From Caldilineaceae bacterium (GTDB taxonomy: Bacteria; Chloroflexota; Anaerolineae; Caldilineales; Caldilineaceae): 62,227 nt of DNA. Under the pieces are notes generated by a model. That model saw nothing but the letters and a program-made list of their open reading frames with translations, was not told the origin of the DNA and ran no database searches. The DNA lies in assembly GCA_022824685.1 (NCBI GenBank), contig JAJDZJ010000198.1:1-62227 (forward strand), read 5' to 3'. Below are positions 22,132 to 28,921 of this stretch, piece after piece. The position numbers and the translations under genes are program-made. The number at the start of each line of letters is the position of its first letter. Within the stretch, counting starts at the first letter, position 1.

Positions 22132-23526
22132 TCAGTCCACTTCCAGGCTCAGCACCTCGCCGCTCCCCGCATCAATCAGGACCGTCGCCGTCTTCTCTTC
22201 ACCCTCCAAAGTGACAATCCACACCCTCAGCCCCCCGCGGATTCCGCTCCGCGCCGAGCTTCTGCTGATCCGGCCGATCTCGCCCGATACTTCGTCGACC
22301 GCGATCCCAATCGCCTCCCCACTGCTGATCACCTGCGGAGTAGCCTCGCCGCTCGCTTCCACGGGCGGCCTCGTACCCAGCTCCACCTCAAACGTCCGGT
22401 TTCTCCGCCCGCGCAGGACCTCGATCTCCACGGCCTCGCCCGGCGACTTCTGCATCACCAGGTAACTGATCACGTCCTCGAAATTTCGGACCTCGACTTG
22501 GTCAATCCGCACAATGATGTCGCCATCCCGTAGACCAGCCTCCGCGGAAGGACCCCTCCGCATCACTTGGCCTACAAGAACGCCCAGTACATTCAGGTCC
22601 AGGTCAGCTTCCCGCGCAAGAGGCGCCGAAATCGTCCTTCCGGAAATTCCCAGGAACGGGTAGGTAAACGCGCCATCTTCGATCAGCGCCGGTATCACCC
22701 GCTCGGCCACCATAATCGGAATCGCGAACCCCACGCCCGAATTGACTCCGCGGCCGTTCACGGAACGCTCATCCGTCCGAATCGCGAAATTGATCCCGAC
22801 AACCTCACCCCCCAGGTTCAGCAACGGCCCGCCCGAATTGCCGGGATTGATCGCCGCATCAGTCTGAATCACCTCCGGCAGCGAATAACGCCCAGCGAGA
22901 CCCGGGGTCCCTACCGGCAGGCTTCGGCCCAACGCGCTCACGATCCCCAGTGTCATCGAGTTTTCCAGGCCGAATGGGCTGCCCAATGCAATCGTGTAAT
23001 GGCCCACCTTCGGCAGCCCCTGCGCTCGCGCCAGCGGGCGCAGACTCTTGCCCTCAGGAGCCTCCACCCTCAGCACGGCCAAATCCGACTGGGAATCCTG
23101 CGCAACCAGTTCAGCCTCCGCCCACGTGCCGTCGTAGAAGCTGATAAAGATATCGGCTGCGCTTTCGACAACATGGCTGTTCGTGACGATATGCCCCTCT
23201 TCATCCCAAACCCAGCCGCTGCCCTGCCCCCACATGCCCTCCTCCGGGGCCAGCGTGCGCGAACCGGATCGCCGCACCTGAATACTCACAACCGACTGCG
23301 TTGCCGCGTCATACAGGCCGGACAGCAACGCTTGGTCGGGTAGATCGGTTCCTTCATCCTGCGTAATGTATGTGTACGCCTGCGGCCGGTATTCTGGCGT
23401 CGTCGCCTCTACTGTGGCCGGCTCAATCTGTATCCTGACTATCCCGGCCAACCGGATTGCGAACGCTACTGCTAGAATGCCCACCACAAAGACAAAGGTT
23501 CGCAGTCTAATCGTCCTTGGTAGCAC
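22132..23526 (-). CDS. HtrA/DegP-type trypsin-like serine protease with PDZ and C-terminal PepSY-like domain
   Basis: Envelope quality-control protease of 464 aa. An N-terminal membrane anchor (residues about 9-30) is followed by an S1C protease domain with His118 (TNSHVV), Asp148 (SDLAVLRV) and Ser231 (GNSGGPLL). A PDZ domain follows (LDLNVLGVLVGQVMRRGPSA, DGDIIVRIDQVEVRNFEDV). The last 70 residues (GLRVWIVTLEGEEKTATVLI, DAGSGEVLSLEV) resemble a PepSY-type domain, an unusual addition. The start is GTG with AAGGA upstream. The kinase/regulator genes are upstream on the same strand, and direct repeats at its promoter suggest control by them. Confidence 0.9.
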   Translation of the reverse strand: MLPRTIRLRTFVFVVGILAVAFAIRLAGIVRIQIEPATVEATTPEYRPQAYTYITQDEGTDLPDQALLSGLYDAATQSVVSIQVRRSGSRTLAPEEGMWGQGSGWVWDEEGHIVTNSHVVESAADIFISFYDGTWAEAELVAQDSQSDLAVLRVEAPEGKSLRPLARAQGLPKVGHYTIALGSPFGLENSMTLGIVSALGRSLPVGTPGLAGRYSLPEVIQTDAAINPGNSGGPLLNLGGEVVGINFAIRTDERSVNGRGVNSGVGFAIPIMVAERVIPALIEDGAFTYPFLGISGRTISAPLAREADLDLNVLGVLVGQVMRRGPSAEAGLRDGDIIVRIDQVEVRNFEDVISYLVMQKSPGEAVEIEVLRGRRNRTFEVELGTRPPVEASGEATPQVISSGEAIGIAVDEVSGEIGRISRSSARSGIRGGLRVWIVTLEGEEKTATVLIDAGSGEVLSLEVD

Positions 23527-23608: not shown

Positions 23609-23673
23609 AGTATAGCGATTTCCGGCCCTCGTGTCCTTATCAGAATCCTATGGCAACTTTAAGGCAACCTTAA
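23609..23673 (-). promoter_or_regulatory. Putative promoter and response-regulator site of the HtrA gene
   Basis: On the minus strand two abutting 11-base direct repeats, TTAAGGTTGCC and TTAAAGTTGCC (plus-strand 23663-23673 and 23652-23662), stand upstream of AGGACA (-35, 23632-23637), a 17-base spacer and TATACT (-10, 23609-23614). One-turn direct repeats next to a poor -35 are the usual layout for activation by OmpR-family regulators, and such a regulator is encoded nearby. The rest of 23527-23816 shows no gene. Confidence 0.6.
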
Positions 23674-23816: not shown

Positions 23817-25235
23817 TTACCGAGGAAACTCCCGCCGAAGAGTCAGAACCAGCTGCGCTCCCCTGCCCGCAGCGCGATGCTGAGCAGTCAGCGTGCCGCC
23901 CTGCGCCTCCGCCAGCCGCCGCGAAAGCGCCAGTCCAATGCCCATCCCTTCCCGCACCCGCTCCTGGCGCGATGAACGGTAGAGAAAATCAAAAATCCGC
24001 TCCCGTTCCGATGGGTCGATGCCCGGCCCGCTGTCCTCGATAGTCAGCGCGACACGGTCCTCTTCCGAGCCAACCGCGATGCGAATCTGTCCGCCGTTCG
24101 GCGTATACTTGATCGCGTTGTCCAGCAGGTTGCCAATGATCTGGCTGAGGCGCATCGGATCTGCCGCCGCCAAGACCGCCTCCCGCTCAAATTGTGTGGT
24201 GAGCGCGATCTCTTTCTCCTGAACGCGCGTATCATACCGGCCGCACTCTTCCAAAACCAACGCCCCGATTTCAGTGGGCACGACATCAAGCGCCAGGTCC
24301 TGAATGTCGTTCCTTGCCAGCAATGCCAGATCATCCAAAAGACGGCGCAGCTGATCGACCTGGTCGTCAATGCCCGAAGAGAGCTCGACCACCGTCTCAG
24401 TATCCTGACCGTTCTGGCTCACAACCTGCGCGGCCGCCTTGATCGCCCCCAGCGGGCGCCCCAACTCATGCACGACCGCGCTCAGCAGCCTCCTCCTCCC
24501 CTGCTCCAACTCATACAGCCGCTCCGCCATCTCGTTGAATGTGCGGGCAAGCGTGCGCACTTCCGTCGGCCCGTCCTCCTCGACCAGGCCGGGCGGCGCA
24601 TCGAAATTGACCGCGCGGCTGGCCCGCGTCAATCTCTCCAGCGGCTTGTTGAGCGACCGGCTCAGAACGAAACTGAGCGCGATCGACACCAGCAACCCCG
24701 CGCTGACAGCCCCCCAAACCGTCCATCTCAAGACCCTCAAACGATTATTCACCTGCGTCAACTGCTGTGAGAGATGGACCGCCCCCACGATCTCCTGATC
24801 CGCATTGCGTACCGGAACGGCCACGTCCGCGTTGCCCAAACTCACCTGCCGCGCGATCTCCCCGGCCAGCGCCTTCTGCAAAAGCTCCGGATCAGGTTGT
24901 CGGATAGGCACCTCCGTCGATGCCGTCGCCAACCCCCGCCTCACGACGACCTTCCCATTCCGGTCCACAACATAAAACAGAGTGGGAATCCGAAACTGCA
25001 AACGGGCGAAAAGCGCCCCCGCCTGCTCCGGGTCCTCCTGCGCCGCAAGCTCAGCCTGATATAGCCGCGAAATCAGCTCCCCCTGCCCGGCCAGCTCCGC
25101 AGTCGCTTCATCCAGCACAAAGCGCGCCTCGATCAAATAGAAAAGCAGAAAGCTCAACAATGGAACGATCACCAGCAAAGGAAGAAGATGGCTGATCATC
25201 AAACGGCTTTGCAGGTTACGCCACATCAGTCCCAT
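23817..25235 (-). CDS. Sensor histidine kinase with HAMP domain
   Basis: Membrane kinase of 472 aa. Transmembrane helices at about 15-35 and 173-192 enclose an extracytoplasmic sensor of about 135 residues; a HAMP segment follows (SRSLNKPLERLTRASRAV). The phosphoacceptor is His256 in VVHELGRPLGAIKA, where most kinases read HELRTPL. The ATPase has NLLDNAIKYTPNGG (N box), EDSGPGID (G1) and GMGIGLALSRRLAEAQGG (G2). It overlaps the regulator gene by 20 bases, so the two are coupled. The stimulus is unknown; the neighbouring HtrA gene suggests envelope stress. Confidence 0.92.
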   Translation of the reverse strand: MGLMWRNLQSRLMISHLLPLLVIVPLLSFLLFYLIEARFVLDEATAELAGQGELISRLYQAELAAQEDPEQAGALFARLQFRIPTLFYVVDRNGKVVVRRGLATASTEVPIRQPDPELLQKALAGEIARQVSLGNADVAVPVRNADQEIVGAVHLSQQLTQVNNRLRVLRWTVWGAVSAGLLVSIALSFVLSRSLNKPLERLTRASRAVNFDAPPGLVEEDGPTEVRTLARTFNEMAERLYELEQGRRRLLSAVVHELGRPLGAIKAAAQVVSQNGQDTETVVELSSGIDDQVDQLRRLLDDLALLARNDIQDLALDVVPTEIGALVLEECGRYDTRVQEKEIALTTQFEREAVLAAADPMRLSQIIGNLLDNAIKYTPNGGQIRIAVGSEEDRVALTIEDSGPGIDPSERERIFDFLYRSSRQERVREGMGIGLALSRRLAEAQGGTLTAQHRAAGRGAQLVLTLRREFPR

Positions 25236-25935
25236 CCTCCCCGGCCGGCGTCAACCGGTACCCAATCCCCCGTACCGTGAGTAGACGGCGGGGACGGGCA
25301 GCGTCCTCCTCGATCTTCGTGCGCAACCAGCGCACATGGACATACACAGTCTGCGTTTCGCCGACCCATTCAGTTCCCCATACGTTCTTCAGGATGTCCG
25401 AAATCGGGACCGCTTCCCCCGCCCGGCTCGCCAAATAGGCGAGCAGTTCGAACTCCCTGGGTGTTAGCCCTACGGTCCGTCCGCCTACTGTGACCCGGTG
25501 CGCAGAGCGGTCCAACGCCAAGTCGCCTACATAGAGATTCGACGCTCCCGCCTCGCTGCTGTCCCGTCCTCTCGCCTCCGCGCGCCGCAACACGGCCTTC
25601 ACCCTGGCCAGCAACACATCAATGTCGAACGGCTTTGTCACGTAGTCGTCAGCGCCCAACTCCAGGCCCACTATCTCGTCTAATTCCCGCCGCCTGGCCG
25701 TAACAAAGATGACCGGCGCGTCCAACGACTGCTGCAGCCCCCGCAAGGTCTCCAACCCGTCCATCCCCGGCAACCCTATATCCAGTAGCACCAACTGTGG
25801 CCGCCGTTCGCGCGCCTTGACCAGCGCCTCCTCGCCGCTCCCCGCCGTCTCTGTATCGTAGCCTGCCGCCTGCAACCCGATCGACACGCTGCGCCGCATC
25901 AACCGATCGTCGTCCACCACCAATATCATCGTCAC
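25216..25935 (-). CDS. OmpR/PhoB-family response regulator
   Basis: A 239-aa regulator. The receiver domain has the acidic pair in VVDDDRLM, the phosphoacceptor Asp in LLDIGLPGMDG, Thr in FVTARR and Lys in DDYVTKPFD. The C-terminal winged helix is complete (GLTPREFELLAYLASRAGEA, then TVYVHVRWLRTKIEE and TVRGIGYRLTPAG). The GTG start at 25935 has GAGG six bases upstream; an ATG two codons later is possible. It is the first gene of the kinase operon and the likely binder of the direct repeats upstream of the HtrA gene. Confidence 0.93.
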   Translation of the reverse strand: MTMILVVDDDRLMRRSVSIGLQAAGYDTETAGSGEEALVKARERRPQLVLLDIGLPGMDGLETLRGLQQSLDAPVIFVTARRRELDEIVGLELGADDYVTKPFDIDVLLARVKAVLRRAEARGRDSSEAGASNLYVGDLALDRSAHRVTVGGRTVGLTPREFELLAYLASRAGEAVPISDILKNVWGTEWVGETQTVYVHVRWLRTKIEEDAARPRRLLTVRGIGYRLTPAGEDGTDVA

Positions 25936-26355: not shown

Positions 26356-26820
26356 TCACTTTACGCCCACGCCGAACTCATAGACCAGTTGCCCGCCCAG
26401 CCAGCCGCTGAGAATCACCAGTCCGATTCCTGCCGCGAGCTGTACTGTCAACCGCCATCTGCCCCAGCGGCCAGCCAGTAGGTCCGTTGCCCAAACGCCG
26501 TCCTCCCCGTCTGTCCCCTTCCGCCGCGTCCATACCAGCCAGCCGCGGTAGATCAGGTCACCGTATAGGACCGCCAGCGCCAGGCCGCTGCCCGTATGCC
26601 AGTTGAGAAAAGGTCGGTAGGGGGCATCCGGCGGCAGAGACCCTTGCGACACGATACCGCTCACGATAGCCGCCAGCAGCGTCACCCATCCTGGCAAGAG
26701 CAGCCCCCACCCTATGATACGCAGTTCCATCCGCGGCCAGCGGTGCAAAGCCCCCAGCAGCGCAAGACTGCCGCAAATCAACAGCGCAATCGGAAAATGG
26801 ACCACGGCGGCATGAATCAC
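26356..26820 (-). CDS. DUF2231-family membrane protein
   Basis: Small membrane protein of about 154 aa with four hydrophobic segments. The VIHAAVVHFPIALLICGSLA opening matches the His-containing helix typical of DUF2231, followed by LNWHTGSGLALAVLYGDLIY. Two histidines facing the membrane suggest heme or metal binding, but function is unproven. GTG at 26820 is chosen (AGGGAAG six bases upstream); an AGGAGG further upstream points instead to a rare ATT at 26844, which would add eight residues. It is divergent from msrP; many DUF2231 genes accompany redox or metal genes. Confidence 0.7.
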   Translation of the reverse strand: MIHAAVVHFPIALLICGSLALLGALHRWPRMELRIIGWGLLLPGWVTLLAAIVSGIVSQGSLPPDAPYRPFLNWHTGSGLALAVLYGDLIYRGWLVWTRRKGTDGEDGVWATDLLAGRWGRWRLTVQLAAGIGLVILSGWLGGQLVYEFGVGVK

Positions 26821-27191
26821 AGTGAGCTTCCCTGACTTCGATACAATTGAATCCCTCCTTCTGCGAGGCAACCTGGTTCCCGGCTCTTCCGCATTCGCCA
26901 GACCAAACTTGCGTGCCTCACGTAGGCCATCCCGCTCCACCTGAAAAGGATACCAGACAACCCGACAACCCTTTGGTACGCTACTTCTCAATTCGCCTCG
27001 CCCGCGCCGACGAAGCGGCGCGATTTTGCCCCTTATCGCAGGTCGGCAGATCGCAAATCCTTTTTCGACTATCTATAACGATCTGATAAGATTCTTGGCA
27101 ATAGTTCCATAATAACTGGGGTCTATACTGGATTGTGTATCAGGATATGGACAACAGGAACCACTCCGAAATGTCTGGGTAAGGCGAAAGG
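26821..27191. promoter_or_regulatory. Divergent intergenic region before msrP
   Basis: About 370 bases separate the DUF2231 gene from msrP. The right part (27060-27150) is distinctly AT-rich (TTTTTCGACTATCTATAACG, then TAATAACTGG and TATACT) and probably holds the msrPQ promoter, but I cannot place a -35/-10 pair with proper spacing. No gene is seen. Confidence 0.4.
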
Positions 27192-28181
27192 ATGAGAAAA
27201 ATGGCACGCATACAGATTCCCAAAGTCCCTTGGCAAGAGATAACGCCTGAAGAGGTCTTCCTCAACCGTCGCAAATTCATGAAAGGCGCCGGACTGGCCC
27301 TGGGCGCGACTGCGCTCGCTGCCTGTTCCATGCCTGAAATGGAGGAGGTAGCCAGCGGGGGAGATACCGAGAGCGCCCAATCCGAGGCCGTATCAGCCGA
27401 GCCCGGAAGCACCGACGAACTTGGCGACCCGCTCAACACGTTTGAGCAGATTACCAACTACAACAACTACTATGAGTTCTCCACCGACAAGCAGGCTGTG
27501 GCGCGCCTGGCCGAAGGCTACCCCACCTCCCCGTGGACCGTTGAGATAGGTGGCCTCGTCAATAATCCCGGTACCTACGATGTCGACGACCTGAAGCAGA
27601 TGTTCGACATCGAAGAACGCATCTACCGGCTGCGCTGCGTGGAAGCCTGGTCCATGGTGATCCCGTGGATGGGTTTCCAGCTCTCCGACCTGCTTGAAGC
27701 CATCGAGCCGACGTCGGATGCGCAGTATGTGCGCATGGAGACGATTCTCGACATGGAAGGAATGCCTGGCCAGAGGAGCAGCAGCTGGTACCAGTGGCCC
27801 TACGTCGAGGGCCTGCGCATTGATGAAGCCATGAATCCGCTTGCGATTCTCGCCACCGGCCTCTACGGCAAGGACCTCCTGCCCCAGAACGGCGCGCCCA
27901 TCCGTCTCGTCGTCCCCTGGAAGTACGGCTTCAAGAGCGTCAAGTCGATCGTCAAAATCGACCTCGTCACCGAGCAGCCAACTTCACTCTGGATGGCCGC
28001 CGCCGGCCACGAGTACGGCTTCTATGCCAACGTCAACCCGGAAGTCAACCACCCCCGCTGGTCTCAGGCCACCGAACGCCGCATCGGCGAACGCGGCCGG
28101 CGTGAAACCCTCATGTTCAACGGCTATGAAGAACAGGTCGCCTATCTCTACGAAGGGATGGACCTGGTCGCAAACTATTAG
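27192..28181 (+). CDS. msrP: MsrP (YedY) molybdopterin methionine-sulfoxide reductase catalytic subunit
   Basis: Catalytic subunit of 329 aa that repairs oxidised methionine in envelope proteins. NRRKFMKGAGLALGATALAA is a twin-arginine signal (Arg26, Arg27) and it ends in LAAC, a lipobox at Cys45, so the enzyme may be a Tat-exported lipoprotein, which differs from the soluble Gram-negative form. RLRCVEAWSMVIPWMGF holds the cysteine ligand of molybdenum. ITPEEVFLNRR just before the signal is typical of the family. The start ATG at 27192 has AAAGG; ATG 27201 is a second option. msrQ follows after 83 bases. Confidence 0.93.
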   Translation: MRKMARIQIPKVPWQEITPEEVFLNRRKFMKGAGLALGATALAACSMPEMEEVASGGDTESAQSEAVSAEPGSTDELGDPLNTFEQITNYNNYYEFSTDKQAVARLAEGYPTSPWTVEIGGLVNNPGTYDVDDLKQMFDIEERIYRLRCVEAWSMVIPWMGFQLSDLLEAIEPTSDAQYVRMETILDMEGMPGQRSSSWYQWPYVEGLRIDEAMNPLAILATGLYGKDLLPQNGAPIRLVVPWKYGFKSVKSIVKIDLVTEQPTSLWMAAAGHEYGFYANVNPEVNHPRWSQATERRIGERGRRETLMFNGYEEQVAYLYEGMDLVANY

Positions 28182-28202
28182 CGATTCCGCGAGAACGATA
28201 TT

Positions 28203-28234
28203 GCTGGCGGTCAGGCCCTGTCTTGGCCGCCAGC
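28203..28234 (+). promoter_or_regulatory. Intercistronic hairpin between msrP and msrQ
   Basis: GCTGGCGG (28203-28210) pairs perfectly with CCGCCAGC (28227-28234). Without a T-run it probably tunes msrP versus msrQ mRNA levels. Confidence 0.45.
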
Positions 28235-28264
28235 CAGTGGTGTTTGATCTCCAGAAGGTGACGC

Positions 28265-28921
28265 ATGAACATCGATAGACTTTTGAGCAAAAACCAGATC
28301 CTCTGGCTGACACATATCGGCGCTCTGATCCCCTTTGCGTGGCTGCTATACCAGGACTATTCAAACGGGCTGAGTGTCAATCCAATCCAGGACTGGACTC
28401 TCCGCACCGGAAAGCCCGCGCTCGTCCTGCTCGTCCTCTCTCTCGCATGCACGCCCCTCAATATCATTCTCGGCTGGCGCAACATCATCCCGGCTCGCAA
28501 ATGGCTGGGCCTCTATGCCTTCAGCTACGCGGCCGTCCATTTCTACGTCTTCATCGGGGTAGATTACGCCTATCAGTGGATCTATATCTGGCAGGATGTT
28601 GGCACAAAACCCTATGTCATCGTCGGGTTTAGCGCCCTGCTGATTTTGCTGCCTCTGGCTCTCACCTCGTCCAAAGCGTGGATGCGCCGCCTCGGCAAGT
28701 GGTGGAAGAAACTCCACCAATGGGTCTATCTCGCCGGTGTCCTCGCAGTATTTCACTATGTCTGGGTCGTAAAGGCCGACTACCGTGAACCGGCTGCCTG
28801 GGGCGTTCTGCTCGGACTCTTCCTTATCGTGCGCATTCCCATCGTCCGCAAGCGCATCGCTCGATGGCGCTCCAAGCTAAGAGGCCCTGCCCAACCAAAG
28901 GCAAGACGATCGGCGGCCTGA
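28265..28921 (+). CDS. msrQ: MsrQ (YedZ) heme-binding membrane subunit
   Basis: A 218-aa ferric-reductase-like membrane protein with about six hydrophobic helices. It passes electrons from the quinone pool or flavin to MsrP. Heme-ligand histidines are visible in SYAAVHFYVF, KKLHQWVYLAG and VFHYVWVV. RKWLGLYAFSYAAVHFY and LTSSKAWMRRLGKWWKKLHQ are the family's strongest blocks. The start has GAAGGTG upstream. The basic C-terminal tail is cytoplasmic. A terminator-like hairpin follows. Confidence 0.92.
   Translation: MNIDRLLSKNQILWLTHIGALIPFAWLLYQDYSNGLSVNPIQDWTLRTGKPALVLLVLSLACTPLNIILGWRNIIPARKWLGLYAFSYAAVHFYVFIGVDYAYQWIYIWQDVGTKPYVIVGFSALLILLPLALTSSKAWMRRLGKWWKKLHQWVYLAGVLAVFHYVWVVKADYREPAAWGVLLGLFLIVRIPIVRKRIARWRSKLRGPAQPKARRSAA

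Follow-up and report, generated by a model that had tools for sequence, protein, structure and literature searches.

We describe here a 65-bp element that is probably (at roughly 80%) an activator-dependent promoter of an htrA gene in a Caldilineaceae bacterium. Judged from sequence comparisons, the response regulator (RR) encoded in the same cluster, once phosphorylated by its kinase, would bind an array of repeats in this element as two tandem dimers and raise HtrA. The window, i.e. the whole stretch of DNA analyzed (62,227 nucleotides), sits in a 5.23-Mb genome assembly. Our computations revealed a four-unit array, its conservation, a fixed promoter geometry, co-occurrence and adjacency of the array with one clade of RR, and downstream genes that are mostly envelope-related.

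The htrA locus and its promoter

The genes of the cluster follow each other on the minus strand in the order DUF2231 membrane protein, RR, sensor histidine kinase (HK), a gap of 290 bp, HtrA-like protease (with PDZ and PepSY domains) and methyltransferase (Table 1), which bears out the preliminary description of a regulator encoded two genes upstream of htrA. No terminator was found in the HK-htrA gap, so read-through from RR-HK is possible. A search of the htrA leader for RNA elements gave no Rfam match. The protease carries its PepSY/YpeB domain at the C-terminus, after the protease and PDZ domains; this unusual addition could be a regulatory tail, and the HtrA homologues of other Caldilineaceae genera (G018, G021, G022 and G034) also align across it. 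Divergent from the DUF2231-RR-HK-HtrA cluster lies a methionine sulfoxide reductase pair, MsrP/MsrQ, of which MsrP is a constant neighbor of the cluster in the genus. Envelope protein repair next to the control of an envelope protease suggests a common oxidative-damage theme.

The element is located in the HK-htrA gap, the htrA start codon being 83 nt past the -10. It consists of the -10 and a 44-bp array of four 11-bp units, TTAAGGTTGCC TTAAAGTTGCC ATAGGATTCTG ATAAGGACACG, the third of which is a weak copy. The preliminary description had reported two abutting 11-base repeats upstream of a poor -35 and a good -10 at 17-base spacing. Both repeats (units 1 and 2) and both promoter hexamers (AGGACA and TATACT, 17 bp apart) were recovered, and the span it gave, 23609-23673, is exactly the array plus the -10; however, the site has four units and not two, as ATAGGATTCTG and ATAAGGACACG, which extend the 11-bp register into the -35, had been missed. 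The promoter scores 9/12 unaided. Taken alone, the repeat pair is at chance level for the window: the 62 kb contain a single tandem 11-mer pair with no more than one mismatch, against a mean of 1.01 in dinucleotide shuffles, and a pair falls inside the 290-bp HK-htrA gap in 0.2% of shuffles. Consequently it is conservation, and not the repeat itself, that carries the case for this feature.

Table 1 Position and supporting evidence of the features of the htrA locus in the window.
Feature	Position	Strand	Evidence and remarks
htrA	22132..23526	-	S1C-type protease, PDZ, C-terminal PepSY (Pfam/NCBIfam); presumed target gene
-10 element TATACT	23609..23614	-	Sequence; 17 bp after the -35
Array plus -10	23609..23673	-	65-bp element
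Array	23630..23673	-	44 bp, four 11-bp units
Array unit 4, ATAAGGACACG	23630..23640	-	Overlaps the -35; core pairwise identity 0.96
-35 element AGGACA	23632..23637	-	Sequence; GAC conserved in the genus and the class
Array unit 3, ATAGGATTCTG	23641..23651	-	Weak copy; core pairwise identity 0.92; in-register motif class-wide when left unspecified
Array unit 2, TTAAAGTTGCC	23652..23662	-	Sequence; core pairwise identity 0.98 (16 genomes)
Array unit 1, TTAAGGTTGCC	23663..23673	-	Sequence; core pairwise identity 0.90 (16 genomes)
Sensor histidine kinase (HK)	23817..25235	-	HAMP, HisKA, HATPase_c (Pfam); extracytoplasmic domain predicted
OmpR/PhoB-type response regulator (RR)	25216..25935	-	Pfam; predicted array binder; orthologues co-occur with and adjoin the array
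DUF2231 membrane protein	26356..26991	-	Invariant upstream neighbor within the genus
MsrP/MsrQ	27192..28921	+	Methionine sulfoxide reductase pair

Conservation of the array and its link to the regulator

The relatives sampled within the genus are metagenome assemblies of Caldilineaceae bacterium (Chloroflexota). All 16 of those that have the RR-HK-HtrA cluster contain the array and promoter between HK and htrA (16/16), usually as the sole site in the genome. Alignment of the 16 gaps gave the block TTAAGGTTGCC TTAAAGTTGCC ATAGGATTCTG ATAAGGACxxx, followed by a variable spacer and then usually TGCTATGCT; unit 4 reads TTAAGGAC in two members of the genus. Only the unit cores and the -10 were conserved: pairwise identity over the 16 genomes was 0.90 to 0.98 for the six-base cores (Table 1) and 0.89 for the -10, against 0.47 for the -35/-10 spacer and 0.31 just upstream of the array. 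The chance level of the repeat pair would suit an accidental repeat beside an ordinary constitutive promoter, devoid of regulatory meaning, but this explanation is refuted by the contrast between the cores and the upstream gap and by the identical layout in other families, and we give it practically no weight. A 17th genome of the genus, G009, is without RR, HtrA and array, three features that one assembly gap could remove together.

No array was found upstream of the RR gene in the genus, so autoregulation, which is common in such two-component circuits, is not seen here. For the genome of the window itself we also rejected a wider regulon: the search returned one real site and one 3-mismatch match, with up to four matches for the reversed control. 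A second array-like site is common to two members of the genus (G010:C45:67494-67558 and G012:C28:52638-52702). In the sister genus g7 no array was found near RR-HK, though the RR is 71-72% identical, which implies that the site diverged or moved there. Within the genus, the expectation that the repeats are kept where the regulator is kept was borne out; in g7 and some other members of the family no array was found despite retention of the RR.

Outside the genus, two genomes (G051 and G049) were first spotted only through the RR and a TTAA-N7-TTAA pair, and all four units with the same promoter spacing were found in them later. G051, which belongs to another family, has the order RR-HK-array-HtrA, with the array TTAAGCATATC TTAAGCTTTTC TTGGGATTCCC TTAAGGACTGG and TATAAT 17 bp after the -35; its HtrA is just 40% identical, and the layout is the same nonetheless. 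G293 has this order as well, and in G049 an orphan RR and the array accompany a NEW3-domain protein and an ABC ATPase. Of 396 genomes of the class searched with a pattern built from these sites, 57 had a match, compared with about 9 matches for the reversed control. In all, about 13 further Anaerolineae families have the array in this promoter geometry, and unit 4 reads (A/T)TAARGAC class-wide. Beyond the class, matches, mostly weak, came from 5 of 220 genomes. These include family f76, another Chloroflexota family (G446, G462 and G532), which has a distinct conserved four-unit TTAA array, TTAAGCTGATA TTAACCTTATG TTAAGGGAATG TTAAATACACT, with other spacing and a different distance to the likely -10.

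The search was also run with parts of the site left unspecified, near-identical sites being removed manually before the counts. With unit 3 unspecified, 56 sites from RR-positive genomes had A at position 4 in 46 cases, G at position 5 in 36 and T at position 7 in 40; the motif kept the exact register, with a z of 15 relative to shuffles and far worse scores in other registers, and the T at position 7, which was never specified, emerged in units 1, 2 and 3. With the -10 also unspecified, 57 sites were obtained against 3 control matches, and TAnnnT was found 17 or 18 bp from the -35 in 48 of 51 sites against 1.9 in shuffles. This unprompted emergence of unit 3 and of the -10 points to a unit made of TTAAGnT plus four mostly free bases, set in a promoter of fixed geometry.

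To relate the array to the regulator, the 396 genomes were also searched for the RR clade. Outside the genus the array (at most 2 mismatches) was present in 21 of 64 RR-positive genomes and in 1 of 317 RR-negative genomes (Fisher p = 5e-17), the lone exception being G355, whose assembly is 81% complete; other genomes of its genus carry the RR. Array and RR are within 4 kb of each other in no fewer than 13 of the genomes from outside the genus (chance about 1e-23); both this value and the Fisher p are too small because they treat related genomes as independent, but about 14 families are represented among the sites. The search without a specified -10 added four cases of an array beside the RR (G046, G280, G299 and G175). 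Most genomes are metagenome assemblies. Among RR-positive genomes from outside the genus, half gave no array at up to 3 mismatches.

The array could alternatively be read by another OmpR/PhoB paralogue (PhoB-, WalR- or MtrA-like), the neighboring RR-HK pair controlling something else. TTAA-rich 11-bp direct repeats fit many regulators of this type, paralogues at 41-50% identity are present in these genomes, no array was detected in g7, which has the RR, and eleven RR-negative genomes have 3-mismatch matches. However, such paralogues are found in almost every genome, with or without an array, whereas the presence of the array tracks the RR clade, arrays adjoin the RR, and both are missing in G009. 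We therefore hold a paralogue to be a quite unlikely reader of the array. Since the array is conserved across many Anaerolineae carrying the neighboring two-component regulator, it is very probably, on this comparative evidence, the landing site of that regulator. The earlier proposal of an OmpR-family regulator acting on one-turn repeats to control htrA is, given the conservation, co-occurrence and adjacency, most likely correct.

HtrA proteases are encoded behind the array in the genus of the window and in G051, G293, G216, G355 and G067. Many other arrays precede a NEW3-domain protein with an ABC ATPase, or an ABC ATPase alone, and the remaining downstream genes code for MoxR ATPases, secreted-repeat lipoproteins, a PRC-barrel protein, HEAT-repeat proteins and a Rieske protein. 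In G021 a Crp-type regulator is encoded downstream of the array, after RR-HK, and in G237 the array precedes the RR itself. Most members of the genus have one site and some other genomes five or six. Some single sites may be due to chance; the theme of the targets would be membrane and envelope upkeep. In several Anaerolineae the secreted NEW3-domain protein recurs behind the array as a pair with a DrrA-like ABC ATPase (L049:4227-6424; L181, L182 and L184), possibly an uncharacterised exporter tied to envelope stress.

Regulator and protease identity and comparison with described systems

Both the receiver (PF00072) and the winged-helix Trans_reg_C domain (PF00486) of the RR were above the Pfam cut-offs, which places it in the OmpR/PhoB family. 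In its translation the acidic pocket, the phospho-acceptor Asp and the Thr and Lys are present as usual, and the HK translation contains the phospho-acceptor His. The RR was below the cut-off of every NCBIfam model among the matches listed, the nearest curated models being MtrA (214 bits, cut-off 300) and YycF/WalR (211 bits, cut-off 340), and no CssR model was among its 25 best NCBIfam matches. PhoP of Mycobacterium tuberculosis forms the second group of its PDB matches. The structure model of the HK is weak (mean pLDDT 67), and its top PDB matches are mainly kinase cores. In the RR clade the recognition-helix stretch GExQxxYVHxRWLR is near-constant and differs from that of the paralogues (SRTVDVHVRWLREK), as expected if the binding site is constant too. 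The protease scored 273 bits against the HtrA/DegP model TIGR02037 (cut-off 416) and was above the Pfam cut-offs for the protease and PDZ domains; it is classed here as HtrA-like.

A circuit resembling CpxRA or CssRS had been predicted for this locus. CpxRA of Enterobacteria is an envelope-stress system whose OmpR-family regulator controls the HtrA/DegP protease, and the likeness lies in the combination of such a regulator with an HtrA/DegP-type target. Membership of the RR in CpxR was ruled out, however, by a score of 137 bits against a cut-off of 341 (NCBIfam PRK10955), the HK reached 120 bits against 486 for CpxA (PRK09470), and the genus has no autoregulatory array. The circuit would work like CssRS or CiaRH. 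CssRS of Bacillus and CutRS/CssRS of Streptomyces are likewise two-component systems controlling htrA-type proteases, but Streptomyces CutR reads TAWATAAA and not TTAAG arrays (PMC12802291).

In site and target CiaRH can be taken as the closest described match: in Streptococcus htrA is a main CiaR target, and the CiaR box, NTTAAG-N5-TTTAAG, shares with the array the TTAAG half-sites, the 11-bp period, the direct repeat and a fixed distance to the -10 (PMC3091779). Half-site and period agree in units 1 and 2; the G essential to CiaR is A in unit 2 of the genus but G in 44 of 56 sites class-wide. In CiaR sites there are two units, and 10 nt separate the end of the second from the -10, whereas the array has four and its last core ends 20 nt before the -10, so that it departs from the CiaR rule and lies one helical turn further up. 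The two systems also belong to different phyla and differ in the recognition helix (VVEVYVSKVRKKL against TVYVHVRWLRTKI). No small-RNA family match was found at the array site. The likeness to CiaRH and CssRS would be one of function and site form.

Other members of the family offer parallels for the site. PmrA recognizes YTTAAK repeats, a related half-site (PMC10927774). The 7-bp motifs of M. tuberculosis PhoP are strictly spaced by 4 bp, three or four of them in a row are bound more tightly, and the tandem dimers of PhoP extend to tetramers (PMC4832192); the array has this form of motif and spacer, but the PhoP motif is TCACAGC and not TTAAGnT. E. coli ArcA gives a 44-bp footprint on four 11-bp direct repeats (PMC3798270), yet the number and spacing of ArcA repeats vary by site, whereas here there are four units at a constant promoter distance.

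Proposed control of htrA and significance

Tandem dimers are the form in which OmpR/PhoB regulators occupy direct repeats. We infer RR binding, its dependence on phosphorylation, activation rather than repression and the nature of the stress signal as follows. The HK encoded just upstream would phosphorylate the RR. Two tandem dimers of the RR would then line up on the same face of the DNA helix, covering four half-sites of 11 bp (TTAAGnT and a 4-bp spacer) in head-to-tail order. The subunit on the fourth half-site, over the weak -35, would touch RNA polymerase and thus increase transcription from the -10. Damaged extracytoplasmic proteins would in this way lead to more HtrA protease. The same RR could instead act with the opposite sign, covering the -35 and repressing htrA until a signal frees the promoter, as ArcA often does: unit 4 overlaps the -35, the promoter scores 9/12 unaided, and multi-repeat ArcA sites that overlap promoters at the polymerase site often repress (PMC3798270). 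Repression, however, has no need of the class-wide fixed distance from array to -10 (17-18 bp from the -35), a spacing that favors an activator touching RNA polymerase. The -35 is moreover kept as (A/T)TAARGAC and not as TTGACA, which suggests that it belongs to the activator site. We consequently regard repression as unlikely and retain activation by the phosphorylated RR.

On a broader scale, we find it reasonably probable that the arrays belong to an undescribed two-component system of about 14 Anaerolineae families, which uses one portable four-half-site promoter module before differing envelope-maintenance genes. Across lineages the module precedes genes for HtrA proteases, ABC exporters with NEW3-domain proteins, MoxR ATPases, secreted-repeat lipoproteins and the RR itself. 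A full-text search of the available literature returned nothing relevant on a described Anaerolineae system of this kind, and the system is apparently an undescribed form of envelope-stress control. Stress regulation is little studied in the Anaerolineae, which are mostly uncultured. Here a clade of regulators was obtained together with the rule by which they likely bind and a first regulon, making the regulon predictable from Anaerolineae genome sequence. Finally, an OmpR/PhoB promoter with four strictly fixed repeats offers a natural test of the number of dimers needed and of their spacing to RNA polymerase.
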